20,779 nucleotides of DNA. Origin: a virus. Below are positions 5,325 through 17,317 of the stretch, one piece after another; position 1 is the first letter of the stretch, and every line of letters begins with the position of its first letter. The position numbers were made by a program, and so were the translations under genes. The stretch spans positions 1 to 20,779 of the IMG/VR virus record IMGVR_UViG_3300017760_000137. One strand, given 5' to 3'. Under the pieces are notes generated by a model. It was not told the DNA's origin, ran no database searches, and saw nothing but the letters and a program-made list of their open reading frames with translations.

Positions 5325-5939
5325 TTAGTCCTTACTTTTTTTATTTTTATCTATGTATGATTGATAGACTTTATAAGCCTGTCTCAAATTTTTTTTCTTT
5401 TCAGGATCTTTTGCTCTGACACTTGCTACTTTTGCTCTTTGACCCATTGCAATTGCAGCCTGCATTTTATGTGCGTGTGTTTTGCCTGACCCTCTTATCT
5501 TACTTACAGATTGTTTTGCTTTTGGTTTATCTGTAAAACCTAGACCGTGTATAGTACCTTTTGGGTTTTCATCTGTGTATAAATCACTATGTTTATCTGA
5601 CCCAGCAGGTTGACCTTTCTTACGAGGTATTCTATTTGTATTAGCAGTTACCATAGGTTTGTATGTACCTAAACCTGGTCCTGTTCTTTGTGAATATATT
5701 CCTGCTTGTTTACTTGATTGAGCACCTTTGTATTGTGGGAATAATTGACCTTGACCTCCCATGGATGCCATAGGGTTTAAAGTTGATATAGGTCCTACAC
5801 CCACACCATAAGTCACTCCCATGTATTCTCTTAATTCTTTTAAACTTTTCTTACGGCCAGCACAATGTGCTTTTTGTGAGAAACCTTTTGGGTTATCACA
5901 ATCAATAGACTTTTTATATTTGTCTGACCAGTTTGACAT
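5325..5939 (-). CDS. Basic Gly-rich structural-type protein with Cys-pair motif
   Basis: This is a 204-residue, strongly basic protein. The N-terminus has DCDNPKGFSQKAHCAGRKK (residues 14-32), a Cys-pair motif I recall from small proteins of T4-like marine phages. It is followed by KELREYMGV and a Gly/Pro-rich, probably disordered middle (GVGVGP, GGQGQLFPQYKG, GPGLGTYKP). The C-terminal third has KTHAHKMQAAIAMGQRAKVA, then a Lys-rich helix. LRE at about 34-36 fits the [L/I]-x-E prohead-protease consensus, but it is internal rather than N-terminal. The gene overlaps the next upstream gene by one base. A head-associated or DNA-binding role would suit the charge and disorder, but I cannot name the function. 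Confidence 0.75.
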   Translation of the reverse strand: MSNWSDKYKKSIDCDNPKGFSQKAHCAGRKKSLKELREYMGVTYGVGVGPISTLNPMASMGGQGQLFPQYKGAQSSKQAGIYSQRTGPGLGTYKPMVTANTNRIPRKKGQPAGSDKHSDLYTDENPKGTIHGLGFTDKPKAKQSVSKIRGSGKTHAHKMQAAIAMGQRAKVASVRAKDPEKKKNLRQAYKVYQSYIDKNKKSKD

Positions 5940-6517
5940 TATTTCTTTTTACCTTTAAGATATTCTACATAGTCATTAACTTCACTATCGAATTGACTTA
6001 ACATTTTAGAAGCTGCGTCATTTCTAACATTACCAGGAATAGTTCTACTATTCATATTTTTAGATTTTGCAATTTCTTTAACTTTATTATCTACTGCATA
6101 TCTGAATAACTTAACTGCTAAATCTTTATTGTAAACACCTTTTACTTTTTTTCTTGCTAAGTTTTTTACAATAGGTTCTATTTGCCTTGAATATAACTGA
6201 CCATCATTTGAGGCCTGTGTTGCAATTTCACTTGCTGACAAATTTTCATTCATTCTAAATTTAGTTAAGAAGTTAGTTATTCTTTTTTTAAATTCGTCTT
6301 TATTTTTTTTCTTATAAGATTTTGCTGCTTTAGGTTCTACGCCTGGTTCACCATCTGGTCCTACACCTATACCTGCGATATTACCACCGCCTGCACTATT
6401 AGCAGGTGCGTCTTCTTCAGGTACACAATTAGGCACTCTTTTACCATTTTTCTTTTTGAAACCTACTGCCTTATATCCTGTCCAGCATGCCTCTCTTAAT
6501 TTTCTAAAAGTAATCAT
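5939..6517 (-). CDS. Candidate capsid-targeted small protein, C-x-x-GY motif
   Basis: This is a 192-residue basic protein. The N-terminus MITFRKLREACW fits the tag shared by several proteins here, with a possible prohead-protease site LRE|A (cut after Glu9). Next comes CWTGYKAVGFKKKNGKR, then CVPEEDAP, a Cys pair spaced like that in the 91-residue protein (CPDGYRF to CVP). A flexible stretch follows (NSAGGGNIAGIGVGPDGEPG), resembling GVGVGP in the next gene. The C-terminal 130 residues are helical (FLTKFRMNENLSASEIATQA, EPIVKNLARKKVKG). I recall related CVP..GGG..GPDGEP proteins in marine myophages but no function. Gene ends touch both neighbours. A role as a head internal protein is inferred from the tag only. 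Confidence 0.8.
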   Translation of the reverse strand: MITFRKLREACWTGYKAVGFKKKNGKRVPNCVPEEDAPANSAGGGNIAGIGVGPDGEPGVEPKAAKSYKKKNKDEFKKRITNFLTKFRMNENLSASEIATQASNDGQLYSRQIEPIVKNLARKKVKGVYNKDLAVKLFRYAVDNKVKEIAKSKNMNSRTIPGNVRNDAASKMLSQFDSEVNDYVEYLKGKKK

Positions 6518-7104
6518 TAAAATTTGATCCTTTCTATATTGTCCTCTGACACTATTACTTTTTTTTGTGTCTCTTCACTAACAACATGATATAAGTTAAC
6601 ACCTAAAAAGTTATCAAAAGGTACTTGATCTTCTACGTTTTTTACAATATCGCCTACGTCAGCAGTCTTTTCATTATTCAGATCAGTTAATGTATCTGTC
6701 ATAATAAATCTACCTTGAGGTAGTATATTGTCTTCAGATGATTCTTTCATATCACCAAAGTGTATTAAATCATTATTTCTTAAATAAGTATAAAGTTCTT
6801 TTTCAATTTCAACCATATTCAAATCTTTACTTTCTTTAAGTAATAGACCTAATGCAGCTGCATATGTGCCTATTTTAGATTTACCGCCAGGTATTACATT
6901 TATTAAACGCTTTAAATTAAAAACAAATTTATGTAAGATAGTATAACTATCTCTTTCTTTAGAAGTTTTTAATTCTTTTGTTTTTCGTAATACTTTTCCA
7001 TTCTTATCAATTATGCCGTACTTATAAGCGTCTTGTTTTTCAAAAGGAGTAATTAACATCTTAATTATCCTATATGTTATAAGTACATCTATTGCTCTTC
7101 CCAT
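6517..7104 (-). CDS. Conserved phage protein of unknown function
   Basis: This is a 195-residue protein beginning MGRAIDVLITYRIIKMLITP. It then reads KYGIIDKNGKVLRKTKEL and a helical block ILHKFVFNLKRLINVIPGGK. I recall proteins with this start and the FNLKR..PGGK block as widespread in T4-like marine phages, annotated only as hypothetical. The C-terminal half is acidic (SSEDNILPQGRFIMTDTLTD). There is no signal peptide, no membrane span and no capsid-targeting tag, so it is a cytoplasmic or virion-assembly protein. Stop and start overlap the neighbours by one base on both sides, showing tight co-expression with the small head-type proteins around it. Confidence 0.8.
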   Translation of the reverse strand: MGRAIDVLITYRIIKMLITPFEKQDAYKYGIIDKNGKVLRKTKELKTSKERDSYTILHKFVFNLKRLINVIPGGKSKIGTYAAALGLLLKESKDLNMVEIEKELYTYLRNNDLIHFGDMKESSEDNILPQGRFIMTDTLTDLNNEKTADVGDIVKNVEDQVPFDNFLGVNLYHVVSEETQKKVIVSEDNIERIKF

Positions 7105-7466
7105 TACATTTGTTCCAAACTATTTAATATTGTTTTGTTTATCTTAACATTGTTAAATTCTTCATCACTAACATACTTTAAATATACTAAAAAAGTTTTA
7201 AGTATTCCCCAAAACTCTCTTTCTATTTTAAAAAATAACAAAGTACAAGCTGCGTCAACACCAAAAACATTTTGTAGTACAATTAGATGATTAATAACTA
7301 ATCTAGTTTTTAATTCACCTGTTGCCTTGTACTTACGAAATAAGCGTTTAATATACTTAAATCGTTTCACATCCTCATAAAACTCTTTTTCAGAGTCAAA
7401 ATTAGGACAATCATAGTTTTTGATTGCGTAAAACAACCAGTTATCTTTTGTTATCTTACTGAACAT
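7104..7466 (-). CDS. Conserved small phage protein of unknown function
   Basis: This is a 120-residue protein rich in aromatic and basic residues (DNWLFYAIKNYDCPNF at the start). Its centre reads LVINHLIVLQNVFGVDAACT then LLFFKIEREFWG, a block I remember from hypothetical proteins of T4-like marine phages. It is probably all-helical. No catalytic motif is visible, and the hydrophobic parts look like a protein core rather than membrane spans. It overlaps the genes on both sides by one base. Function unknown. Confidence 0.75.
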   Translation of the reverse strand: MFSKITKDNWLFYAIKNYDCPNFDSEKEFYEDVKRFKYIKRLFRKYKATGELKTRLVINHLIVLQNVFGVDAACTLLFFKIEREFWGILKTFLVYLKYVSDEEFNNVKINKTILNSLEQM

Positions 7467-7918
7467 TAAGCAAGCTCTGCATAAACTTTAACAGCGCCGT
7501 TTTCTAATGTTTCGTAATTACCTTTTAACTTTAACTCTCTACCTAATTTATGTTGTATACCATCATCATTAATATCAGAGCCATCAGTGTCTTTACCGAA
7601 ACGACCACCGTGTTGTGTCAAACCAGTTTCAAATTTACCACTCTTGCCTTCTACACTTACAGAGTCTTTGAATACTAAACCGATTGTGCCTAGTCTTTGT
7701 GATAATTGACTTAGCGCAGCCTCTGGTTTAATATATTCTCTGTCTGCAATAGATTTAACAAAAGCATTTACTCTTTCAAGTACAGCAGGTTCATGTATGT
7801 TGTGAACGCCAATAGAACCGTCTTCAATAGATTCTTCGCCACCACCTGCAGTGTTGACACCTTTAGCATCCCCAGCATATCCTTTGTATTCCTTGATATG
7901 TTGTTTAAATGTTTTCAT
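7466..7918 (-). CDS. Candidate capsid-targeted protein (MKTF tag)
   Basis: I place the start at ATG 7918 (150 residues). It follows the upstream stop directly and has a strong ribosome binding site (AAAGGAAACTAAA). The longer frame from 7984 would overlap the upstream gene and lacks this. The N-terminus MKTFKQHIKEYKGYAG closely resembles the T4 IPIII capsid-targeting peptide as I recall it (MKTYQEFIAEA), with a possible cut IKE|Y after Glu10. Next are a Gly-rich acidic linker (TAGGGEESIEDGSIG) and a helical block (ERVNAFVKSIADREYIKPEA). An Asp-rich loop GKDTDGSDINDDGIQ could bind calcium. The C-terminus is beta-like. No enzyme family is recognised. It could be an internal head protein or a core component. 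Confidence 0.8.
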   Translation of the reverse strand: MKTFKQHIKEYKGYAGDAKGVNTAGGGEESIEDGSIGVHNIHEPAVLERVNAFVKSIADREYIKPEAALSQLSQRLGTIGLVFKDSVSVEGKSGKFETGLTQHGGRFGKDTDGSDINDDGIQHKLGRELKLKGNYETLENGAVKVYAELA

Positions 7919-7919
7919 T

Positions 7920-8138
7920 TTAGTTTCCTTTAACTTTTCCCTTAACTTTTTGTAATAACTCGGATGATACCACACCATTGCCATTACCTTTCTTGTTTTC
8001 TTTTCTCATACTTTTAAAAGACTTACCGCCAAGTAAATCTTCTTCAAAGTCATTTACTGATCCCATCTCCTCAAACTGCTCAGAGTGAGGAGTGTTATCA
8101 GCGATTTCGTTTAAGAATTTGTCCATTTCTTTATCCAT
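7920..8138 (-). CDS. Small charged phage protein
   Basis: This is a 72-residue, highly charged protein with an acidic N-terminal half (MDKEMDKFLNEIADNTPHSE, EEMGSVNDFEEDLLGG) and a basic C-terminal half (KSFKSMRKENKKGNG, ending KVKGKVKGN). The split charge suggests that it bridges partners or binds nucleic acid through its tail. KSFKSMRKE resembles KSFKDMRKE near the C-terminus of the 249-residue protein at 9878-10627, so a short module may be shared. It starts one base into the stop of the coiled-coil gene and ends just before the MKTF-tagged gene. No family recognised. Confidence 0.7.
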   Translation of the reverse strand: MDKEMDKFLNEIADNTPHSEQFEEMGSVNDFEEDLLGGKSFKSMRKENKKGNGNGVVSSELLQKVKGKVKGN

Positions 8139-8380
8139 TATGCTAATGAAGCAGAAACTGCCTTATCCTTTTCATTTAATAAAACCTTAGTGTCTTTTTT
8201 CTCTGTGTCAATCATCGGAATGAGTTTATCAATCTGTTGTATCGCACCATATACAGCATTTAAATTATTCTGCTGTGTAGTCAAAGACTTTTTAGTTTTT
8301 TCTATATTAGATGATATAGTGTCAAAATCACTTTGTAATTTTTTTCTTTCATCTTGTAGATAATCTAATTCAATACCCAT
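8138..8380 (-). CDS. Small coiled-coil protein
   Basis: This is an 80-residue protein that is almost wholly a predicted coiled coil by eye, with heptad-spaced hydrophobics in LDYLQDERKKLQSDFDTISS and NIEKTKKSLTTQQNNLNAVY. The part following is IQQIDKLIPMIDTEKKDTK. It has no Cys, no membrane span and no tag. ATG 8380 has AAAGGATATTATT before it, a good ribosome binding site. It lies just after the structural protein at 8398-8859. A scaffold or chaperone-like role is possible. Such short coils also occur as tail-fibre chaperones, but nothing here is specific. Confidence 0.7.
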   Translation of the reverse strand: MGIELDYLQDERKKLQSDFDTISSNIEKTKKSLTTQQNNLNAVYGAIQQIDKLIPMIDTEKKDTKVLLNEKDKAVSASLA

Positions 8381-8397
8381 AATAATATCCTTTCAAA

Positions 8398-8859
8398 TTA
8401 CGAAGTTGTATAACCGTTACCTGCGATTACATTCCAATTACTATTTTTAAATAAACAAGTTACCGTTTCACCTTGAGCGTTTAACAAAATATTAGTATAC
8501 CCTCTTAAATTAGAAGGTGTAATAGTTTGTATGTGTGTGCCTGAAGATGAAGTGTTAATAAATGTTTTTACTTGTCCATCTGAACCATCAGCAAGTGTTA
8601 TTGTTGCAGTACCAGCTGTACCATTTACCTCTGTTATTGCACTAGTCACATCTGCTACAAGTGTAGTTGAACCATCACTTGTTAATGATTGTGAAGCTTG
8701 TGCTAAACCTAAGAAAGATGGTATATTGTTAAATACGTCTTCGGCTGCAATTTTTTTGTTGATTGGTGTTCCAGTAGGATCATCTACTACGTGAAATAAG
8801 TCTGCAGCTGCAATCCCATCACCAAGATTAGAAAGCGCTGTTATTTTTTTATCTGCCAT
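8398..8859 (-). CDS. Virion structural protein (fibre/decoration type)
   Basis: This is a 153-residue protein beginning MADKKITALSNLGDGIAAAD, then LFHVVDDPTGTPINKKI. This head segment recurs at the start of many phage fibre and appendage proteins. The remainder is Thr/Ser/Gly/Ala-rich beta-type sequence (TEVNGTAGTATITLADGSDG, then a KTFINTSSSG stretch) and ends in a short module with NWNVIAGNGYTTS. No Cys except one near the end, no signal peptide and no capsid tag. It has its own 109-base leader with stem-loops and a possible weak late promoter, so it can be expressed apart from its neighbours. Virion location is inferred from sequence style and from my memory of related marine-phage proteins. 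Confidence 0.75.
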   Translation of the reverse strand: MADKKITALSNLGDGIAAADLFHVVDDPTGTPINKKIAAEDVFNNIPSFLGLAQASQSLTSDGSTTLVADVTSAITEVNGTAGTATITLADGSDGQVKTFINTSSSGTHIQTITPSNLRGYTNILLNAQGETVTCLFKNSNWNVIAGNGYTTS

Positions 8860-8874
8860 TTTTTTCTCCTATAA

Positions 8875-8911
8875 ACCCTTTCGGGTATGCTACTCTAGGT
8901 ATGTTCCTAGA
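8875..8911 (-). promoter_or_regulatory. Two stem-loops in the leader of the structural gene
   Basis: In the transcript of the gene starting at 8859, CTAGAG... is preceded by a 6 bp stem TCTAGG/CCTAGA (8894-8899 with 8906-8911, 6-base loop). A 4 bp stem ACCC-GAAA-GGGT with a GNRA tetraloop follows (8875-8886), ending a few bases before the AGGAG ribosome binding site. They may stabilise the mRNA 5' end or modulate translation. Role inferred. Confidence 0.45.
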
Positions 8912-8925
8912 TCACTTTGTTAATA

Positions 8926-8933
8926 TATTTAGT
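8926..8933 (-). promoter_or_regulatory. Possible degenerate late promoter
   Basis: The minus strand reads ACTAAATA, two mismatches from TATAAATA. It sits 67 bases before the ATG at 8859, close to the 59-60 base spacing seen for two perfect copies. Weak; it rests mainly on position. Confidence 0.25.
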
Positions 8934-8934
8934 A

Positions 8935-8953
8935 GGGCGCCCAAAGAGCGCCC
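8935..8953 (-). terminator. GC-rich hairpin after the 113-residue gene
   Basis: A GC-rich inverted repeat (GGGCGC with GCGCCC, 7-base loop) lies 16 bases past the stop at 8969 in a region otherwise very AT-rich. The tail that follows is A/U-rich (TACTAAATATATT), not a clean U run, so termination may be partial. It separates two structural genes. Confidence 0.55.
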
Positions 8954-8968
8954 CCTAATATTATAATA

Positions 8969-9310
8969 TTAGTTTGATGTTAAGCACACTAGAGTCTCTG
9001 CTTGTACTCTACTTGCTCTGCCACCAGAACCTTGTTTTCTTAATACCCAACCACTGTGTGCGCCAGTCACTTTTAATAAAGTAGAACCGTCTTGCGACAA
9101 TTGTCCTGCACTAGCTTCAGAAGCCGAGATATTGAATAAACCAAGTTTTGCACCTGTAATAAACTGACTGAAAGTTTCGTTTTTGTATAACTTACCAGCT
9201 GCAGCGTTATTACCAGTGTGCATATTCGCCGCTGTCGGCGACTTGTTTACGTAAAGAAGTGACCATAAAGGTGCACTTCCTCCACTATCTGTTTTTGCCC
9301 AACTTGACAT
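8969..9310 (-). CDS. Small virion structural protein
   Basis: This is a 113-residue protein beginning MSSWAKTDSGGSAPLWSLLY. Its C-terminus reads GAHSGWVLRKQGSGGRASRV then QAETLVCLTSN. I recall the GWVLR..G.GGRA.RVQ.ETLV ending from small structural proteins repeated in T4-like marine phages, with the MSSW start also typical. The composition (Gly/Ser/Ala-rich, beta-like) suits a capsid-decoration or tail protein, but the exact virion position is unknown to me. It has a perfect late promoter core 59 bases before its ATG and a GC-rich hairpin after its stop, so it is probably a highly expressed single-gene late transcript with some read-through. Confidence 0.8.
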   Translation of the reverse strand: MSSWAKTDSGGSAPLWSLLYVNKSPTAANMHTGNNAAAGKLYKNETFSQFITGAKLGLFNISASEASAGQLSQDGSTLLKVTGAHSGWVLRKQGSGGRASRVQAETLVCLTSN

Positions 9311-9368
9311 AATTTTCTCTCCTATTTAAATATTAGTTAATAGTACTCAATTTGTTGATATAATGCTA

Positions 9369-9376
9369 TATTTATA
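9369..9376 (-). promoter_or_regulatory. T4-type late promoter core TATAAATA
   Basis: The minus strand reads CTTATAAATATAGC. The core lies three bases after the stop of the HAD gene (9380) and 59 bases before the ATG at 9310, in a 69 bp gap. It abuts the stem-loop at 9376-9395. Confidence 0.75.
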
Positions 9377-9395
9377 AGACTAAAAACCTAGTCTT
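9376..9395 (-). terminator. Stem-loop over the HAD gene stop codon
   Basis: A 7 bp stem AAGACTA/TAGTCTT (9389-9395 with 9376-9382, 6-base loop) includes the TAG stop of the HAD gene and ends exactly where the late promoter core begins. There is no U run after it. It may be a weak terminator or may protect the 3' end of the upstream transcript. Confidence 0.4.
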
Positions 9396-9874
9396 TTTAA
9401 TTGTTGTATTGTTTTTGATGTTGATGTATGATGAATACCTATACCACCTGACATATTAAAATCTCTTATGTTTTTTTCGTAATCATCAATTAGAATTGCT
9501 GGTTTACCTCTTTTTGCAAAGAGTTTCTTTTCTCTTCTTTTTACAAGGTTAACTTTCTGTGAGTTAACCATATTAACATTTTTTCTTAACCATGCTCTTT
9601 TACCTGGTATGCAGTTAGGGTCAAAATTTTCTTCTACGTATGCACTTAAAATATGTGGGTCATGTTTAGATATATAAGACCATAATTGCTTACCACCTTG
9701 CATCCAAGGTAGGTCATACCAGAAGTTTTTATTTTGTAAGATAAGTGACCACTTTTGTTTAGATGAGGGTATATTCATCCATCTGTTGATAGACATACCT
9801 GTTGTCTTAACGGCTGCAGTTTTAAAGTCTGCTAGTACACCATCCATATCGCAATAGATGATTGGTTTATCCAC
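9380..9874 (-). CDS. HAD-family 5'-nucleotidase-like protein
   Basis: This is a 164-residue HAD-superfamily phosphatase of the 5'(3')-deoxyribonucleotidase type. Motif I is YCDMDGVLADF, with Asp9 as nucleophile and Asp11 as acid/base. Motif II is Ser77 in HILSAYVEE. Motif III is a Lys in the basic VKRREKK segment (111-117), and motif IV is ILIDDYEKN with Asp130 and Asp131. All four motifs are present, so it should be active. The reaction expected is dephosphorylation of (d)NMPs in the cytoplasm, which would tune nucleotide pools during infection. Polynucleotide 3'-phosphatase activity, as in the HAD half of T4 Pnkp, is an alternative. It lacks the N-terminal capsid tag of its neighbours. It follows the 249-residue gene with a short gap and is the last gene before a late promoter. 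Confidence 0.85.
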   Translation of the reverse strand: MDKPIIYCDMDGVLADFKTAAVKTTGMSINRWMNIPSSKQKWSLILQNKNFWYDLPWMQGGKQLWSYISKHDPHILSAYVEENFDPNCIPGKRAWLRKNVNMVNSQKVNLVKRREKKLFAKRGKPAILIDDYEKNIRDFNMSGGIGIHHTSTSKTIQQLKRLGF

Positions 9875-9877
9875 GAT

Positions 9878-10627
9878 TTAGATTCTCTCTGATTGTGGTT
9901 CAGTATCTACGGATGCAATTTTTTTACCTGTCATAGTCTTATTCATTTCTTTTCTCATATCTTTAAATGATTTTTCATTTTCAGGTTTGCCTAGTTTCTT
10001 TTGCATTTCTGCTTTTGATTCACCGTATTTTGTTTTAAATTGTTCAGCAGATAAATCTTTCATATCAATGGCGATCTCTTTCATTCTACCCTCTTTGATA
10101 GGTTTAATGATTTGTTTTTCACCATCTTTTGCTTTTTGCACTTTAGCTTGATTTATCTTTTCACCTTTATCGTCAGGCATTACTTTTTCACTTTTCATTG
10201 CCTTTTCTAAAGAGTCTGCTTGTTTGCTGTGAAGTGCTGTTGCCTTTTTAAGACCTGCAACTACTTTTTTAATATCGCCAGCGTCTTTATTATTTAAAGT
10301 CTCTTTTACGTTTGTTGAGATTGCTTTTCTTCTTTTGTGAAGATACTTATCAGTAGAATCAACATCACCATCGTTGTCAATGTCTTTGTCTTTTCTGTCG
10401 TCAAATTTTTTCTTAACAGCGTCTTTGTTTACTGGGTCTAATTTACTTTCACTTACAACTTTAGCAGCTGCGTCTGCAAGTGAACCTGGTTTAGTACCTA
10501 AGTATTTTTTCTCTGTTGTTAATTTAACATCTGATTTAAATGTTCTGTCTATCGTTGGCTGCTCTGAAGCTATTTTTGTAGAGAGTTCTTCAATGCTGCC
10601 TTTTTTACTATCTAAATATTTACTCAT
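9878..10627 (-). CDS. Repeat-bearing Lys-rich protein with EF-hand-like loop
   Basis: This is a 249-residue, very Lys-rich protein. Two N-terminal repeats are visible: KYLDSKKGSIEELSTKIASE (3-22) and KYLGTKPGSLADAAAKVVSE (41-60). A 12-residue calcium-loop match follows, DIDNDGDVDSTD with ligands Asp82, 84, 86, 88, 90 and 93 and Gly87, just before KYLHKRRKAI. Then come a helical module (IKKVVAGLKKATALHSKQAD) and a LSAEQFKTKYGES module, both echoed in the 325-residue neighbour. It ends with KSFKDMRKEMNK. No catalytic motif is seen. I recall KYL..KPGSL repeats from marine T4-like phages. A scaffold or internal head role would fit, as inference. It overlaps the upstream stop by one base. Confidence 0.8.
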   Translation of the reverse strand: MSKYLDSKKGSIEELSTKIASEQPTIDRTFKSDVKLTTEKKYLGTKPGSLADAAAKVVSESKLDPVNKDAVKKKFDDRKDKDIDNDGDVDSTDKYLHKRRKAISTNVKETLNNKDAGDIKKVVAGLKKATALHSKQADSLEKAMKSEKVMPDDKGEKINQAKVQKAKDGEKQIIKPIKEGRMKEIAIDMKDLSAEQFKTKYGESKAEMQKKLGKPENEKSFKDMRKEMNKTMTGKKIASVDTEPQSERI

Positions 10628-11604
10628 TACTTCTTTCCTTTTTTAGCTGCACGAGCCTTTTTCGCCAAATCAGCGTCAGCTGTGTAGTATGCTTTTCCTT
10701 TTGTGATGAACGCATTAACTCTAGCAAATGCCCATTGTTGTGGCGTTGTACCAGGTCTATGTCCACCTTTCCATGCAGCCATACCCCTATTGTACACTTG
10801 TTTTAAAATGCCATAAGGTATGCCTGACTTTTCAGATTTATTTTTTATGCCTTCAATCTGTTTTTCATCTATTTGTTGCATTTCTTTTTCTTTCTTTGGT
10901 TCTTTTTCTGAAGTTAATCTAGCTGCTCTTTCTTTATTTTTTAAGTCATCTAGTTTTAACTTCATTGTTTCTAAATCACTCTTTGCAATTGCAAGAGGTG
11001 TTTTCTGTTTTGGATCACCAACATCCATACTATTAACTTTATTATTTTTATCTGTAATTCTATTTTGTAAATCAGATATTCTTTGAGCAGGTGTTTGTTC
11101 TACTTCAGTAATACCCACTTTCTTTTTAACAATATTTGTTGCCGTAGCGTATCTTACTGCGTCACCTTTTTCTTTACCATATCTGTCTTTAAAATCTTTT
11201 TTAGGTAAATCATCTGCCATCTTATGTACTTTTTTTACCTGACCTTTTGTCAAGTCTGCTTCTTTGACAGCCTTTTTTAGCATATCTCTCTGACCAGCAT
11301 GAGCGTCTGAAGCCTTATCTAATTTAGATATAACTTTTTTAACAACTGATAAATCTTGGTTGTCTAAGCCTTCTTTAAACTTAATATTACCTTTTAAAAT
11401 GTCTGAAGTGACTTCTATCTCTCTGACACCATCTCTCTTTAATTGTGCCATTTTGTCATCTGCTGACTTCTTATCTTTATAAGGTATTGCAAATCTTTTT
11501 TTGTTTAATGGATCTCTATATCTTACTACAAAGACCTGTGTAAATTCATTTACTTGATTTACTTGTTCTCGTAATTCTTGCCAACTTATTCTATATCTAC
11601 TCAT
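10627..11604 (-). CDS. Modular Lys-rich phage protein, possible capsid tag
   Basis: This is a 325-residue basic protein. The start MSRYRISWQELREQVNQ may be a longer form of the N-terminal tag, with a possible protease site LRE|Q after residue 14. Residues ~20-80 form a small mixed domain (VFVVRYRDPLNKKRFAIPYK). Next come the module VVKKVISKLDKASDAHAGQR and the module LPKKDFKDRYGKEKGDAVRY. Both have counterparts in the 249-residue protein and the second also in the 953-residue protein. A long charged coiled-coil stretch follows. The C-terminal domain reads GIPYGILKQVYNRGMAAWK then GGHRPGTTPQQWAFARVNAF, a block I recall from several marine-phage proteins, of unknown function. There are no enzyme motifs. 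It lies between the 953- and 249-residue genes with one-base overlaps. Confidence 0.8.
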   Translation of the reverse strand: MSRYRISWQELREQVNQVNEFTQVFVVRYRDPLNKKRFAIPYKDKKSADDKMAQLKRDGVREIEVTSDILKGNIKFKEGLDNQDLSVVKKVISKLDKASDAHAGQRDMLKKAVKEADLTKGQVKKVHKMADDLPKKDFKDRYGKEKGDAVRYATATNIVKKKVGITEVEQTPAQRISDLQNRITDKNNKVNSMDVGDPKQKTPLAIAKSDLETMKLKLDDLKNKERAARLTSEKEPKKEKEMQQIDEKQIEGIKNKSEKSGIPYGILKQVYNRGMAAWKGGHRPGTTPQQWAFARVNAFITKGKAYYTADADLAKKARAAKKGKK

Positions 11605-14465
11605 TAGTTATTTACCTTTGCCCCTGCTCTCCACTGATAACAAGACCAGTATCGTGCTTTCCATTTCGGCCCTGGAGTATCACATCTATGTCTTGCTCTG
11701 AAGCTTCGTCTTCTTGCAGGATCATCTCTCTTAATACTCAAACCTGTTGTATCACCAAAAGAAACTTTTACTACTTTACCTGTTTCGCCTTTTACATAAA
11801 CATAAAACTTTTTAGAACCACCTCTAATCGGGTCGTTTAGTTTTACCTTTTTGCCTTGATATTCGGCCTCTTGTAAAGGTTCTGACTCGTGTTCAAATAA
11901 ACACTCGTCACATTTCTTATCAAACTCTTCATCAAATTGTTTAAAACTTTTCACTTCTATATTTTCTCCGATACTCTTTCTGACTTCTTCTTTTTCATCG
12001 CCATGTTTTGATTTAAAGTCTTCTTTTGTTAGAGTTTTAATATCTCTACTATATTCTTTAAATCTACTTTTGACAATCTCGTCATTTGTATCAACAACTT
12101 TGTTGATCATTTTTTCGTAGGTTTCTTCTAATTTAGATTCCCACTCATCACCGTATCGTCCCTTATATTTATCTATTGTTTCATCGCTATTTCGCCACTC
12201 TTCAATGTCTTTTAATTCTACTTTATTAATCATTTTAATCTTCTTACCAGAGACTTGTATTTTGTTATTTTCTGGATTACTAGGGGTATATGTTGTGCCT
12301 TGAAACTTAGGATCATAATTAGTTTCACCTGGTGTAATAGATGAAGTGTATTTTGCATAATCATGCCCTATATCGTATGCCTCAGGCATACCCATATCTG
12401 TAAGACCCATATTTACTTTTTCAGTCTCTTTATTATTTTTGTTAATTTTTAGTTCACCATACATCTGTTTAAACTTTTTCGTGTACTTACTAGGTTTAGT
12501 CTTTGCACCTTTATCAGCACTTGTTTGTTTGTAGGCTGCAGGATCATCATCTCTCATTTTAGATTGTTTGTCTAATTGAGACTTATGTTGTTTTGCCTTA
12601 TCTTTTGAAAGACCTTTTACATATTTTTTAGGTAGACCTGTCTCTTTATCTTCAGGCGATTTCTTAATTGAACCACCTTTATCATAGTACTTTGGATCTC
12701 TTTTATATTTGTGTTTAGCAATTTTCTTTGCTCTTTCTTCTAACTCAATAGGATATACTGGCGTTTCCATAATATTATGTAACCAACATCTATGTAATTG
12801 ACTATCAACATCTTCTAAAGTCACATAGTTTGTTCCTCTTCTTATAACTATACCAGTTATACCATTTTGTATATCGTCAACTATATCTCCTATTTCATAG
12901 ATATGTTCACTGATATACTGATCTCTTAATGTCATCTTTTCTAATTCTTCTCTTGTTGAAGCAGTTATGAAAGGTTTAAATCTTAATGCACCTGCACCAG
13001 CGTCATGGTTGACACCTGCAGCCAATTGCATACCTTTTCTTACATCTTTGAATAATTGTAAACCTTTATTTGAATTACCAAATGATGAAGGTAAACCTTT
13101 TTTAAATATATCGTAGTTGTCTGATTTAGCGGCAGTTCTCATTTTACTTGCACTCATACCTGTTGCACCATCAGCGTCTGGATCTCTTTCACCAGCAGAT
13201 ACAATATTGATTTTATCATAATTATAGAAACCATGTCTACTTCTTATGTTATTGTATTTCTTAATTGTTGTTTCAAATTCTCTTACTCTATCACTACCAA
13301 CTACCATAGATAATTCTGTTGTACCTCTATTGTATAGATCGGTTACTATTTCAAATACACTATTAGATTTACTTACAATAATATTTCTAGCGTGTCTAGG
13401 AAACATTTGTTTCATTGCCTGTATTTTTTGTCTATATGATAAAGGATTCTTTGCACTATCCTCTGACTTACTTACAAAGATATAATAGTTATCTGCTCTA
13501 ACTTGCGATAACTTATTCATAAGTTTTTCATGTCCGATTGTTGGTGGATTGAATCGACCAAAGGTAAACGCTATATGTCTACCTTTGGCCTCTTTTATTT
13601 TAGATAATGATTTCAGTTCATCTGGTGTTATTTTCCCGTCATCCATAATGTCGTTCAAATGTTTAAAGAATTTGAGATAATGATACTTCTCTAACATTTT
13701 ATAAATTACATTTTTAGGAAGTCGGTTCTTAACGCCAAACTTTCTGATTTCTTCTGGTGACATATCAGCCGCAAAAGAGTCTTTCCTATCTTGTACGGTC
13801 TTGTCACCAATATCAATTAGAGTGTTAATAGAGTCTGTAATTTCAGCTAACTTCTTAGCAACTAATGTACTCAACCCATCTATATCAGATGAGGTAAGCC
13901 TTGATAGTTCCTCATAATCAATAATATCTCGAGCCAATTCACCTTTAACAACATCTATTTCAGAAACACGTTTCTGAAAATCCGCTAGATATTTTTCAGG
14001 TTCGAAGGTGCCAGGTTCTGGTCTTTTGATAAACTTATTATCGTCTATGTCAAAAGTACCATCTGCCATGTCCCTTGCCTTACTAAATGTAGCAGGATCT
14101 ATGATAGAAAAGTAGTTTACAGGATGATCGGTGCCGGGTATTGTTTCACCATTTATTTCGCCTTGATATTCTCTTATTTTTTCATGTACCTTTTCTTGTT
14201 CTTCCTGTGAACCAGGTATATCAAATAAGATATTTACATCTAAATCAGCGTCATCTCTATATTGTTTTGTTAGTATAGAACCAATTAAGGTATACTTAAC
14301 TACTTTCCCAAATTTTTCAAATGTTTTAATTCCGTCTATTATTTGTTTTCTTACAGCAGGCTTTAAACTAGGATTACTTGTATCTGGATTATCAAATACA
14401 GGTCTTGCGTATGTCTTTCTAGGTATGTCTATAATAGACTCTTTTATAAAATCTTTAAATCTCAT
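11604..14465 (-). CDS. Multidomain protein: Pol-beta-type NTase + NMNAT/cytidylyltransferase-like + C-terminal basic domain
   Basis: This is a 953-residue protein. The N-terminus MRFKDFIKES has the shared tag (possible cut IKE|S after Glu9). Domain 1 (about 40-130) is a Pol-beta-type nucleotidyltransferase: LIGSILTKQYRDDADLDVNI, with Gly62-Ser63 and Asp74/Asp76. Domain 2 (about 296-460) is an HxGH-class adenylyl/cytidylyltransferase resembling NMNAT: FTFGRFNPPTIGHEKL (TIGH 309-312), VVGSDRVREF (388-397) and SASKMR (438-443) in place of ISGTxxR. The middle (about 590-860) is charged and low complexity, with FKSKHGDEKEEVRK matching modules of the two genes downstream. The last 69 residues form a basic Cys/Trp-rich domain (RARHRCDTPGPKWKARYWSC). 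Possible protease sites IKE|A (292) and LQE|A (866) fall at domain borders. Expected products are nucleotide transfer or NAD synthesis; substrates are unknown. Confidence 0.85.
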   Translation of the reverse strand: MRFKDFIKESIIDIPRKTYARPVFDNPDTSNPSLKPAVRKQIIDGIKTFEKFGKVVKYTLIGSILTKQYRDDADLDVNILFDIPGSQEEQEKVHEKIREYQGEINGETIPGTDHPVNYFSIIDPATFSKARDMADGTFDIDDNKFIKRPEPGTFEPEKYLADFQKRVSEIDVVKGELARDIIDYEELSRLTSSDIDGLSTLVAKKLAEITDSINTLIDIGDKTVQDRKDSFAADMSPEEIRKFGVKNRLPKNVIYKMLEKYHYLKFFKHLNDIMDDGKITPDELKSLSKIKEAKGRHIAFTFGRFNPPTIGHEKLMNKLSQVRADNYYIFVSKSEDSAKNPLSYRQKIQAMKQMFPRHARNIIVSKSNSVFEIVTDLYNRGTTELSMVVGSDRVREFETTIKKYNNIRSRHGFYNYDKINIVSAGERDPDADGATGMSASKMRTAAKSDNYDIFKKGLPSSFGNSNKGLQLFKDVRKGMQLAAGVNHDAGAGALRFKPFITASTREELEKMTLRDQYISEHIYEIGDIVDDIQNGITGIVIRRGTNYVTLEDVDSQLHRCWLHNIMETPVYPIELEERAKKIAKHKYKRDPKYYDKGGSIKKSPEDKETGLPKKYVKGLSKDKAKQHKSQLDKQSKMRDDDPAAYKQTSADKGAKTKPSKYTKKFKQMYGELKINKNNKETEKVNMGLTDMGMPEAYDIGHDYAKYTSSITPGETNYDPKFQGTTYTPSNPENNKIQVSGKKIKMINKVELKDIEEWRNSDETIDKYKGRYGDEWESKLEETYEKMINKVVDTNDEIVKSRFKEYSRDIKTLTKEDFKSKHGDEKEEVRKSIGENIEVKSFKQFDEEFDKKCDECLFEHESEPLQEAEYQGKKVKLNDPIRGGSKKFYVYVKGETGKVVKVSFGDTTGLSIKRDDPARRRSFRARHRCDTPGPKWKARYWSCYQWRAGAKVNN

Positions 14466-14740
14466 TATTCTCCGCCGCCTCCATTGCCGCCGTTACCACC
14501 GTTTGCGCCATTGCCACCGTTTCCATTACCATTGCCGTTACCATTTCCGTTAGTATCACCATTACCATTTGTATTATCTGTATCAGCGTTTTTACTTGTT
14601 GTGCCGATACGACCAAAGAAAGGGTATCTTACATATTTATTTCCTGTAGGAACACAAACCTTTAGTTTATTGTCAAATCTATATCCGTCAGGACATCTTT
14701 TATCTGCAACTAAACTCATGTACTCTTTAAATTTCTTCAT
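14465..14740 (-). CDS. Small protein with Gly/Asn repeat tail
   Basis: This is a 91-residue protein. The start MKKFKEYMSLVADKR resembles the shared tag in its first eight residues but lacks the [L/I]-x-E site. Then CPDGYRFDNKLKVCVPTG gives a Cys pair, with the C-x-x-GY to CVP pattern also found in the 192-residue protein. The last ~35 residues are almost only Gly and Asn (GNGNGNGNGNGGNGANGG and onward), encoded by a GC-richer repeat at 14466-14575. Gly-rich tails are seen in phage adhesins and flexible linkers. Neither role can be assigned. It overlaps the kinase gene by 4 bases upstream and the 953-residue gene by 1 base downstream. Confidence 0.75.
   Translation of the reverse strand: MKKFKEYMSLVADKRCPDGYRFDNKLKVCVPTGNKYVRYPFFGRIGTTSKNADTDNTNGNGDTNGNGNGNGNGNGGNGANGGNGGNGGGGE
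14466..14575 (-). repeat. Gly/Asn-codon low-complexity repeat
   Basis: Short GGTAAT/GGCAAT/GGCGGT-type units alternate in the 3' end of the 91-residue gene, encoding the Gly/Asn tail. The local GC is clearly above that of the surroundings. Such tracts often vary in length between relatives by slippage. Confidence 0.65.
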
Positions 14741-15426
14741 GTTCTTCTTTTTGTTTTTCTCTCACCTGCCATCCATCTTTTTGCAATGTAAGATGATATA
14801 GGTTTTGTAATCATTCGTCTAACTATTTTTGATATATTATTTAATGTTATGGTTACTAATTCTGCCTCTGATCTATTATTATCAACTACAACAAAATTAT
14901 TCATACCAAATAGTCTTTGAAACTTACCGATATTACTTTGTACACCTTCCCAGTTTTTCTTTACAATATATTCTGGTACAATTCTTTCTCTTCTTTTTTG
15001 TCTTTCTAAAGCAACATCTAAACTAGTATTTACAAATACCATATAACAATCATATCCTAATTGTTTAAGCATATTAGCATTTCTAGCAATAGTATCATAA
15101 TCTCTACCTGTACTATCAATAACTAAACCAAGTCTACCTTTTAAATAAGTTTGTAATTGATTAAAAATGGTACCTTTTGCTTTCTTTCTTAATATATCTC
15201 TAAAGTATTCTTCTTCATCTGGCATTTTCATAGACAAACCTGCCTTTTTAATTTCTCTTTCAAATGCAATATCAGAGTTTACAACTTTTAAACCTGAACC
15301 TGCAAATGCTGAAGAAGCTACAAATGTCTTACCTGAACCAGGACCACCTGCAAGAAAAAATGCTTTGAATATACCTGGATCATAAAGACCCTCATTTATC
15401 TGTTGTGCAAAACTTTTAATTTCCAT
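14737..15426 (-). CDS. P-loop kinase, zeta-toxin/polynucleotide-kinase-like, with capsid tag
   Basis: This is a 229-residue P-loop phosphotransferase. The N-terminus MEIKSFAQQINEGLYD fits the shared tag, with a possible cut INE|G after Glu12. The Walker A motif is GGPGSGKT (27-34, Lys33). A catalytic-type Asp52 lies in KVVNSDIAFE, where kinases of the zeta-toxin/T4 Pnkp class keep their substrate Asp. The Walker-B-like strand is LGLVIDSTGRDYDTI (Asp104). An Arg-rich lid, ERQKRRERIVPEY, follows. The substrate may be the 5' end of RNA/DNA or a small molecule; the motifs do not decide. It lies two genes from a ligase-like protein, which makes a repair pair plausible. It overlaps adk by 11 bases and the next gene by 4. 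The last ~25 residues are very basic. Confidence 0.8.
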   Translation of the reverse strand: MEIKSFAQQINEGLYDPGIFKAFFLAGGPGSGKTFVASSAFAGSGLKVVNSDIAFEREIKKAGLSMKMPDEEEYFRDILRKKAKGTIFNQLQTYLKGRLGLVIDSTGRDYDTIARNANMLKQLGYDCYMVFVNTSLDVALERQKRRERIVPEYIVKKNWEGVQSNIGKFQRLFGMNNFVVVDNNRSEAELVTITLNNISKIVRRMITKPISSYIAKRWMAGERKTKRRT

Positions 15427-15994
15427 CTTCTATTGCCTTTATAATTTTATTAGCGTTATCTTCTATTGTACCACCCTCTGCTTTTATTTCTACGAAACCA
15501 GGTTTGTCTCTAAAATGTTCTACTGCAGGACCTGTTTCTCTATTGTATAAGTCTATTCTATTATTGATTATCTCTTCAGTATCATCTGCTCTACCTCTTG
15601 CTAATAATCTTTTTAAAATTTCTTCTCTACTGACATCTAAAAATATAACTTTATCGTAACCTATGTTTGCCTCTTCCATATCTCTTACTTGCGTCATATA
15701 TCTAGGCCAACCATCTAAAACATAACCAGTAGGTGATTGATCTACTTTATCTTTAATTAATTTTAAGACTATTTCATTAGGCACAAATTGACCTGTTGAA
15801 ATTATATCTGCAACTTGTTTTCCTATCTCACTACCTTTTTCTACTTCTTTTCTTAACATGCCACCTGGATAGATATGAGGTATAGAAAACCTTTTTGTAA
15901 TGTATTCTGCATAAGTAGATTTGCCTGAACCAGGACCGCCCATTAATATAATTCTTCTAGTTGTCTCTTCTAAAAATGTCAAAAATGTTTTCAT
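15416..15994 (-). CDS. adk: Adenylate kinase with N-terminal capsid-type tag
   Basis: This is a 192-residue adenylate kinase (2 ADP = ATP + AMP), short-lid type. Walker A is GGPGSGKST (19-27, Lys25). The AMP-binding region is YPGGMLRKEV (42-51) where bacterial Adk has STGDMLR. DGWPR (94-98) matches the DGFPR motif. The lid is short and Arg-rich (LLARGRADDTEEIINNRIDL), with no zinc Cys. Normal Adk starts about 12 residues before the P-loop Gly-rich turn, with the first strand almost at Met1. Here an extra MKTFLTFLEE precedes it. This matches the tag on neighbouring proteins and a gp21-type site LEE|T, which would restore a normal N-terminus near TTRRIILMGG. It could set adenylate pools, or work beside the NMNAT-like domain downstream. 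One-base overlap with the ligase-like gene. Confidence 0.88.
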   Translation of the reverse strand: MKTFLTFLEETTRRIILMGGPGSGKSTYAEYITKRFSIPHIYPGGMLRKEVEKGSEIGKQVADIISTGQFVPNEIVLKLIKDKVDQSPTGYVLDGWPRYMTQVRDMEEANIGYDKVIFLDVSREEILKRLLARGRADDTEEIINNRIDLYNRETGPAVEHFRDKPGFVEIKAEGGTIEDNANKIIKAIEDGN

Positions 15995-17217
15995 TATCCT
16001 TTTATCCAGTTCTTTTGTAAATTAAAGTTAGCAGTACTAAATTCTAATCTATCTACTAATTTAACAGCATTACCCATTCTATCTACAGCAACATAACCTT
16101 CTGGATTAGTTAATTTAAATCCATTGTTAGTTTGTAGATATGTACCGATAGATTTAATTTGATTCATCTTACTTACTAAAAAGTTTTTTGCTGTTTGTAA
16201 AGATACATAACTTGCGATTGCAAAGTATATCTCATTTTCATATCTATCAATAAATTTTAAACCTTCGTTTCTAATAGTTTCATATTTTCTTTTTGCACTA
16301 TCAGTTTTTCTTTTTGTAATTTCGTCATCTAAAACTGAAGCATAATATTTTCTAAAATCTGTTTGTAGTTTTTTTACACCACTTATTGCTCTACCTCTTT
16401 TGATATAATCATTAAAGTATATTTTTAATCTTGCACCAACTGATAATAAATTAGTTTGTGATTTTAATAAATTTAAAATTCTTTTGCCTTTGCCAATAGA
16501 ACCCATAGCCATTCTTAACATGCCATCGTATCTATCACTTTCTGCGTCTGTAAATGTTGCAACACCTGAGTTATCTTTATAACTAGCGTCATCAAAAAAT
16601 ACTGATGGCGTCTTTGTAAATGAGTTTACATTAACGCCAAAACTTGCTTTTAAATCAACCATCTTTCGACCTGTGTAAGTAGTGTGAAAGATTATGCCTA
16701 ATTTACTTCTTAATATTCTTTTTGCAAGATCAGTATTTTGAGGTACAGCGTAAGTAATAGTGTTAGGTTTAAACGCAATTGAGTCTTCACCTCTAATACT
16801 TACTTTTTCAATATCTTTAGGTGTATATAATAAATCGCCTTGAACGATACCTTTGATATTTAATTTTGGTAATTCTTTTAAACAAACAATTAGTTTGTCT
16901 GCTAAACCACCTGCGTGATTTTTTCTTATATCTGATTGTGTGTAATTGATTTTAGGATTTACATTGAAGACAGATTTTGATCCAACAAAAAATCTGTTGT
17001 TTTCAGGATTGATACCACAGAATACAGCTGGCGCACCATCCCATTTGACTGATAGATTAACTTTTCTACGAGATGATCCTAAAAGCATATTTCTTAACGA
17101 TTTAAGAAACTCTATTGCTTCTAAGCCACCTGAGTAGCCGTTATTGATTATGTTATCTTCTAAATGTTCTAAATGTGTATTTTTAGCTTCATTTAGATAT
17201 TGTTTAAAACTATACAT
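15994..17217 (-). CDS. KxDG covalent nucleotidyltransferase (RNA/DNA ligase-like) with capsid tag
   Basis: This is a 407-residue protein. The N-terminus MYSFKQYLNEAKN is a clear copy of the shared tag (possible cut LNE|A after Glu10). SVKWDGAPAVF has Lys58 in KWDG, the motif I (KxDG) of ligases and capping enzymes, where Lys carries the AMP. FFVGSKSVF (76-84) would be motif Ia and GIVQGDLLY (123-131) motif III. GIIFHTTYTG resembles IIIa. Near the C-terminus PEGYVAVDRMGNAVKLVDR gives motif IV (Glu373-Gly374) and motif V (Lys386), similar to the EGYV of T4 RNA ligase 1 as I remember it. The ~180 residues between IIIa and IV are a large helical insert. I know it as a hypothetical family of marine myophages; the ligase assignment is my reading of the motifs. 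It is the first gene behind a late promoter. Confidence 0.8.
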   Translation of the reverse strand: MYSFKQYLNEAKNTHLEHLEDNIINNGYSGGLEAIEFLKSLRNMLLGSSRRKVNLSVKWDGAPAVFCGINPENNRFFVGSKSVFNVNPKINYTQSDIRKNHAGGLADKLIVCLKELPKLNIKGIVQGDLLYTPKDIEKVSIRGEDSIAFKPNTITYAVPQNTDLAKRILRSKLGIIFHTTYTGRKMVDLKASFGVNVNSFTKTPSVFFDDASYKDNSGVATFTDAESDRYDGMLRMAMGSIGKGKRILNLLKSQTNLLSVGARLKIYFNDYIKRGRAISGVKKLQTDFRKYYASVLDDEITKRKTDSAKRKYETIRNEGLKFIDRYENEIYFAIASYVSLQTAKNFLVSKMNQIKSIGTYLQTNNGFKLTNPEGYVAVDRMGNAVKLVDRLEFSTANFNLQKNWIKG

Positions 17218-17309
17218 TTGTTTCCCACTATATCCATTATATCAAAATTCAAGGCCATTGTCAATAAAAATTCCAATCAAATCCATTAATAAATCACTAC
17301 TTACGACAA

Positions 17310-17317
17310 TATTTATA
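17310..17317 (-). promoter_or_regulatory. T4-type late promoter core TATAAATA
   Basis: The minus strand reads CTTATAAATATTGTCG, eight bases past the stop of the 71-residue gene, in a 108 bp gap and 93 bases before the ATG at 17217. It should start the long unit coding for the tagged enzymes. The rest of the gap (17218-17309) is AT-rich with no clear hairpin. Confidence 0.75.

Follow-up and report, generated by a model that had tools for sequence, protein, structure and literature searches.

Tag-like N-termini in a minus-strand gene cluster

We analyzed a 20,779-base stretch of DNA (the window), which is the whole of IMG/VR record IMGVR_UViG_3300017760_000137 and a fragment of a T4-like marine virus with genes largely on the minus strand, for short N-terminal tags that unrelated proteins share and that resemble those of T4 internal proteins. 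In its general form, the tag consists of an aromatic residue, two further residues, usually an aromatic residue or His, and then [L/I]-x-E, after which the cut is predicted (marked ↓). All window features listed below lie on the minus strand.

Five genes carry T4-type tags. The DUF6267 protein (407 residues, 15994..17217; PF19782, E = 5e-123), whose closest cultured relatives are in Pelagibacter phage HTVC008M, Methylophilales phage Melnitz, and cyanophages, begins MYSFKQYLNE↓A (codons 17188-17217). A 192-residue adenylate kinase (Adk; 15416..15994) has MKTFLTFLEE↓T (15965-15994) ahead of the canonical Adk N-terminus, and a 229-residue P-loop kinase of the AAA_33/zeta/polynucleotide-kinase-like type (14737..15426) has MEIKSFAQQINE↓GLYDPG (15391-15426). 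A 953-residue protein (11604..14465) begins MRFKDFIKE↓SIIDIPR (14439-14465) and contains a weak Pol-beta-type nucleotidyltransferase match, an NMNAT/cytidylyltransferase domain, DUF5824, and a C-terminal phrog_7595 domain. The fifth, a 150-residue protein (7466..7918), begins MKTFKQHIKE↓Y (7889-7918); the list of open reading frames (ORFs) also holds a longer, 172-residue form, and the start at 7918 was preferred, the MKTFKQHIKE start being common to relatives.

A first-pass annotation had proposed the tag for six or seven proteins. All seven N-termini that it quoted were found in the window as given, and the five above stood as T4-type tags. The 192-residue CWxGYK-domain protein (5939..6517) carries a shorter variant, MITFRKLRE↓A (6491-6517), with few relatives to compare. 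In the 325-residue DUF5824 protein (10627..11604), which has a possible second-type tag, the site MSRYRISWQELRE↓Q (LRE13↓Q) is probably misplaced: relatives keep [LMV]xE right before the domain, which makes ..QVNE20↓F the likelier site in the window. Two features had been overlooked, namely, an embedded tag-like stretch with a cleavage site in the 953-residue protein (11868..11951; KSFKQFDEE...LQE866↓AEYQGKK, residues 839-866) and a 91-residue glycine-rich protein, MKKFKEYMSLVADKRCPDGYRF (14465..14740), whose start, MKKFKEYMSL, has aromatic residues spaced as in the tag but no Glu site.

Frequency and conservation of the tag

Mutagenesis of MKTYQEFIAE in T4 assigned targeting to residues 4 and 7 and processing to residues 8 and 10 (PMC9026906). 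The strict pattern derived from this peptide (aromatic residues at 4 and 7, [LI] at 8, and E at 10, with an offset of -1 to +1) retrieved ipII and ipIII from T4 as a control. In the window, it matched three genes versus 0.03 expected (p = 5e-6), the mean for shuffled N-termini being 0.02. A broader pattern matched four genes, and the tag of the P-loop kinase (F6, Q9, I10, and E12) fell narrowly outside it. The placement of [L/I]-x-E close to the start Met had also been offered as an argument against chance. The bare triad at residues 7 to 14 occurred in 14 window genes versus 4.3 expected and showed no excess in a 165,693-base relative, G001 (34 versus 31.7 expected). Because the G001 counts match expectation, this part of the argument is weak, and the bare triad was dropped as a criterion; the part that invoked the aromatic pattern held. 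Five of the seven broader-pattern matches in G001 (p = 2e-5), and all five matches to a tighter pattern, lay inside the homologous 16-gene cluster. The tags are genuine, and their frequency greatly exceeds chance. That chance or an AT-rich composition made these N-termini similar, as the expected frequency of the bare triad in G001 might suggest, is thus close to impossible, given the strict-pattern count in the window and its refutation by conservation over many relatives.

Comparison of N-termini across related phages, a check that the first-pass annotation had proposed, showed that the tag is kept in five families: among 80 related contigs, 204 of the 276 ORFs that belong to these families carried it, as opposed to none of the 1373 other ORFs. 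Two more lineages gave the same picture. All cytidylyltransferases of cyanophage-like contigs (80/80), and no other ORF there, were tagged. On Melnitz-like contigs, the tagged ORFs were DUF6267 (38/57), p150-like (15/17), and gp15-like (8/8) ORFs plus one further ORF, and the p150 orthologues start MKNF..[HYF]I.E. When distinct sequences from five families or junctions were anchored at the domain start, E was at P1 in 85 of 85 and [LI] at P3 in 81 of 85. The conserved positions coincide with those that mattered in the T4 mutagenesis (PMC9026906). Every distinct P-loop kinase, 953-residue, DUF6267, and C-terminal domain sequence had E before the conserved domain start, and the residue two positions before this E was [L/I] or, in rare cases, V or F; the upstream peptide varied in length and sequence while this site stayed. 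Twenty distinct relatives of the P-loop kinase all had [LI]xE before GLYD, with F at P7 in 19 of 20 and a variable P4 (H, N, or Q). The CWxGYK domain found in the 192-residue protein does not always follow a cleavage site, as had been considered: this held in only 4 of 20 cases.

Two alignments bear on how tag and domain are joined. Position 1 of the Adk profile TIGR01351 aligns at residue 14, and the tagless DUF6267 protein of S-SZBM1, MAKNTHLEHLED, begins M-AKNTHLEHLED, which is the predicted cut point of the window protein (MYSFKQYLNE↓AKNTHLEHLED). Because the Adk profile starts at residue 14 and the S-SZBM1 protein starts at the predicted cut, the tag, judged from these alignments, is an add-on to the domain. 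The cytidylyltransferase of RaK2 is tagless.

Two other enzymes were recorded in relatives. Deoxyribonucleotidase homologues (HTVC008M gp134, L003:11128-11718; Melnitz gp22, L100:19277-19789) have N-terminal extensions that end in LVQE or INE before the domain, and the window protein has no extension. Melnitz gene 2 (L100:82-1131) encodes a RimK-like ATP-grasp enzyme with the tag MTQKFSQFITE↓E, and this enzyme might modify host proteins at entry.

Next, the sites inside the 953-residue protein were compared. In other phages, its C-terminal domain is encoded separately and has a tag-like N-terminus of its own (MKTFKEF...LQE↓AEYQGKKV and MKKFTAK...ITE↓AEHQGKKV); such stand-alone tagged genes were found at L075-L080, at L013, and as HTVC008M gp131. 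At the junction with this domain, the window fusion preserves an [LI]xE↓A site along with the tag-like stretch, and [LI]xE was present at 14 of 14 distinct junctions. In 14 relatives (L030:12478-13125 and 13 more loci), the MRFK[KD]F-type tag of the 953-residue homologue is separated from its [FL]xE↓SIIDIPR site by an inserted domain, a PAP2 phosphatase (PF01569, E = 6.5e-9). Proteins of the 953-residue type look like fused tagged modules with protease sites still between them, and the junction sites suggest polyprotein processing in this family.

Virion presence of tagged orthologues and probable processing

Mass spectrometry of virions has detected a cytidylyltransferase/NMNAT-like protein in S-SM1 (PMC3037559), S-SCSM1 (PMC9602691), S-SZBM1 (PMC9146016), and S-CREM2 (PMC10665884). 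These proteins are orthologues of the cytidylyltransferase/NMNAT part of the window 953-residue protein, and their N-termini are, respectively, MKKFSAFLNE↓A, MKSFLQFLKE↓A, MRFRQFIIE↓A, and MKNFSSFLTE↓A. Whole-genome scans with annotated starts gave one pattern match each in S-SCSM1 and S-SM1 and two each in S-CREM2 and S-SZBM1, and five of the six tagged proteins of these proteome-mapped cyanophages were detected (p = 8e-4 versus overall detection rates). The virion list of S-CREM2 includes gp6 (L098, 3837-5081), an S-adenosylmethionine (SAM) hydrolase with the tag MKDFDSFLEE↓F, which suggests an anti-restriction enzyme delivered with the DNA. Some untagged proteins of the window may be virion components as well: the 402-residue protein is related to S-SCSM1 ORF90 and the 249-residue protein to ORF92, both of which were detected. 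Therefore, the tag need not be the sole route into the head. The CWxGYK domain of the 192-residue protein is related to S-SZBM1_139, also detected.

The tag reading can be checked in existing virion mass spectrometry data. The predicted mature first peptide of S-SCSM1 ORF91 is AAESGASVQAK (uncut tryptic form, EAAESGASVQAK), and that of S-SZBM1_140 is AVAAAAK (uncut form, QFIIEAVAAAAK).

The search for a gp21 homologue, also proposed at the outset, yielded S77 gp21-type proteases in G001 and in all five reference phages tested, and one, gp88, is annotated in HTVC008M. The capsid protein of G001 has FLSE↓AAPTN at the place of T4 gp23 FLTE↓AEIGG. Upstream of the DUF6267 start lies a T4-type late promoter, TATAAATA (17310..17317); of 24 IMG/VR relatives examined, 23 have it 71 to 101 nucleotides upstream of that start. 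Immediately upstream of the same gene is a perfect sigma-70-type promoter, TTGACA-N17-TATAAT (17236..17264), and a similar one, with at least 10 of 12 matches, is directly upstream in 20 of 24 relatives. The number of TATAAATA copies in G001 showed no excess over composition shuffles (27 found versus 32 expected per strand); the late-promoter argument thus draws on conserved position and on a strand bias of 27 to 2, not on the count. For marine T4-like phages, the late promoter has been reported to be NATAAATA, and the same paper describes genes that have an early promoter in addition to a late one (PMC2984593).

We conclude, with a probability of roughly 0.85, that the tags are propeptides of the kind that target T4 internal proteins to the capsid and that, through them, at least five unrelated proteins are docked, cut, and most likely ejected. 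During head assembly, the tags would dock the DUF6267, Adk, P-loop kinase, NMNAT-like 953-residue, and 150-residue proteins on the prohead core; a gp21-type protease would then cut after [L/I]-x-E and free the mature enzymes amid the packaged DNA. Long fusions would probably also be cut at internal [L/I]-x-E junctions, releasing their domains, and the enzymes would most likely be ejected with the DNA and be active at the start of infection. The phage thus probably packs a small ready-made set of enzymes in its head and delivers it with the DNA. Experiments in T4 with this pattern and the virion presence of tagged orthologues give strong support for packaging. The first-pass annotation had likewise proposed loading into the head, and both the tagged NMNAT orthologues in four cyanophages and the [LI]xE kept at the border of tag and domain bear this out. 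We infer cleavage after [L/I]-x-E, for which the conserved sites provide good support.

Several points weigh against this conclusion. Ejection into the host is inferred by analogy with T4 (PMC12373910). The four NMNATs are orthologues and not independent cases, so that the tagged and detected set amounts to about two independent families, and mass spectrometry support covers the NMNAT family and the SAM hydrolase only. S-SZBM1_191 (L316, 122311-122628; 105 residues, MKSFKSFLSE↓S) is tagged and adjoins a detected virion protein but was itself undetected. The strict pattern had zero matches in HTVC008M, where only degenerate tags were seen (gp126, MLSFTGYSNLSE; gp127, MYNDLLVE; gp129, MIPFILKE), and the window fragment has no protease gene. 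Tagless homologues with an intact domain, named by the first-pass annotation as evidence against the tag, were found for DUF6267 in S-SZBM1, S-SM1, and Syn9. They show that the tag is optional and do not refute its role: in S-SZBM1, the tagless DUF6267 protein is missing from the virion list, and the neighboring tagged cytidylyltransferase is on it.

The authors of the S-CREM2 and S-SCSM1 proteomes noted that carry-over could not be excluded (PMC10665884, PMC9602691), which also counts against virion loading. If the detected proteins were abundant contaminants, the tag could be an amphipathic N-terminal peptide for another partner, such as a membrane, the replisome, or another complex, and the variable P4 of the P-loop kinase tag would fit this. 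We regard it as very improbable: the peptides follow the T4 internal-protein pattern including the cleavage triad, a match that extends to the capsid-protein site, genome-wide matches are nearly confined to virion-detected proteins, and the border of the domain retains [LI]xE. Somewhat less remote, although still unlikely, is that the tagged proteins are assembly factors that bind the core, are cut, and serve head morphogenesis or stay in the particle without host delivery. T4 core proteins such as gp22 are likewise cut by gp21 and mostly expelled (PMC9026906), and no enzymatic role is known for the 150-residue and DUF5824 proteins. However, the intact catalytic motifs of Adk, the P-loop kinase, and the NMNAT-like domain fit a role in the host better than one as scaffold, and the tagged SAM hydrolase in S-CREM2 virions is the cargo expected for anti-restriction.

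Enzyme identities and known systems

The DUF6267 protein has, in order, KWDG (58-61), QGD (126-128), PEGYV (372-376), and AVKLVD (384-389), with key residues that, judged by eye, are invariant in the alignment. The order resembles KxDG, G(D/E)L, EGxV, and KxV/K, which we take to be the ordered motifs of the covalent nucleotidyltransferase/ligase superfamily. The AlphaFold2 model had low confidence, no convincing PDB match came from Foldseek or VIA-align, hhalign gave no match to T4 RNA ligase 2 (Rnl2) or T4 DNA ligase (gp30), and a PDB sequence search with both alignments returned nothing useful; by motif order, the protein may be called ligase-like. The best Foldseek match of the NMNAT-like domain in the 953-residue protein was NadM/NMNAT (E = 2e-5), and the Pol-beta-type match (E = 0.001) was under the Pfam cut-off. 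In the 953-residue protein, Pfam identified only other domains and no polyvalent-protein hallmark (ArdC-N, MPTase, MuF, or ART), although no hallmark-specific search was made. PADLOC kinase matches appeared to be generic P-loop matches and were set aside.

Our best guess for the job of these proteins is repair of RNA ends and of nucleotide and nicotinamide adenine dinucleotide (NAD) pools against host defense. Tentatively, the head might carry a modular, tag-addressed kit (ligase-like, polynucleotide-kinase-like, and NMNAT-like nucleotidyltransferase proteins and Adk), partly as polyproteins cut in the capsid; the kit would arrive at time zero and restore cleaved RNA and exhausted NAD and nucleotide pools before any phage gene expression.

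Our literature search found no publication linking capsid-targeting sequences to marine T4-like phages; the device is known from T4, and its use by marine T4-like phages to load a cassette of several enzymes appears to be undescribed. The tag would give a sequence rule to predict which of the many uncharacterized proteins encoded by abundant marine phages reach the host at the very start of infection, offer a mechanism for the repeated detection of NMNAT-like enzymes in cyanophage particles, and extend to a set of several enzymes a device that in T4 serves small anti-restriction proteins. As a separate observation in T4 itself, the 54-residue gp61.1 (L103, NC_000866 18966-19130), which has no assigned function, begins MKTFKEFIKE↓D, with the full capsid-targeting pattern, and may be an unrecognized internal protein. 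In T-even phages, ip genes are reported to have been found through the capsid-targeting sequence (PMC12373910, citing Repoila 1994).

Among the closest known systems is that of the T4 internal proteins IPI, IPII, and IPIII, in which the same 10-residue N-terminal peptide (aromatic residues at 4 and 7, [L/I] at 8, and E at 10), with a cut after [L/I]-x-E, is likewise one tag on unrelated proteins. The T4 proteins are small anti-restriction cargo, whereas the proposed cargo of the window comprises enzymes from several families encoded in one cluster, with predicted cleavage sites also inside fusions. T4 Alt and the polyvalent proteins are enzymes that are carried in the head and injected, as proposed here, and have a multidomain organization; Alt has a different propeptide (MELITELFDE). 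The virion NMNATs of S-SM1, S-SCSM1, S-SZBM1, and S-CREM2 have a homologous catalytic domain and the same type of tag and are detected by mass spectrometry. The accessible parts of the papers on them name no targeting signal, and in the window the domain sits in a 953-residue multidomain protein with tagged neighbors.

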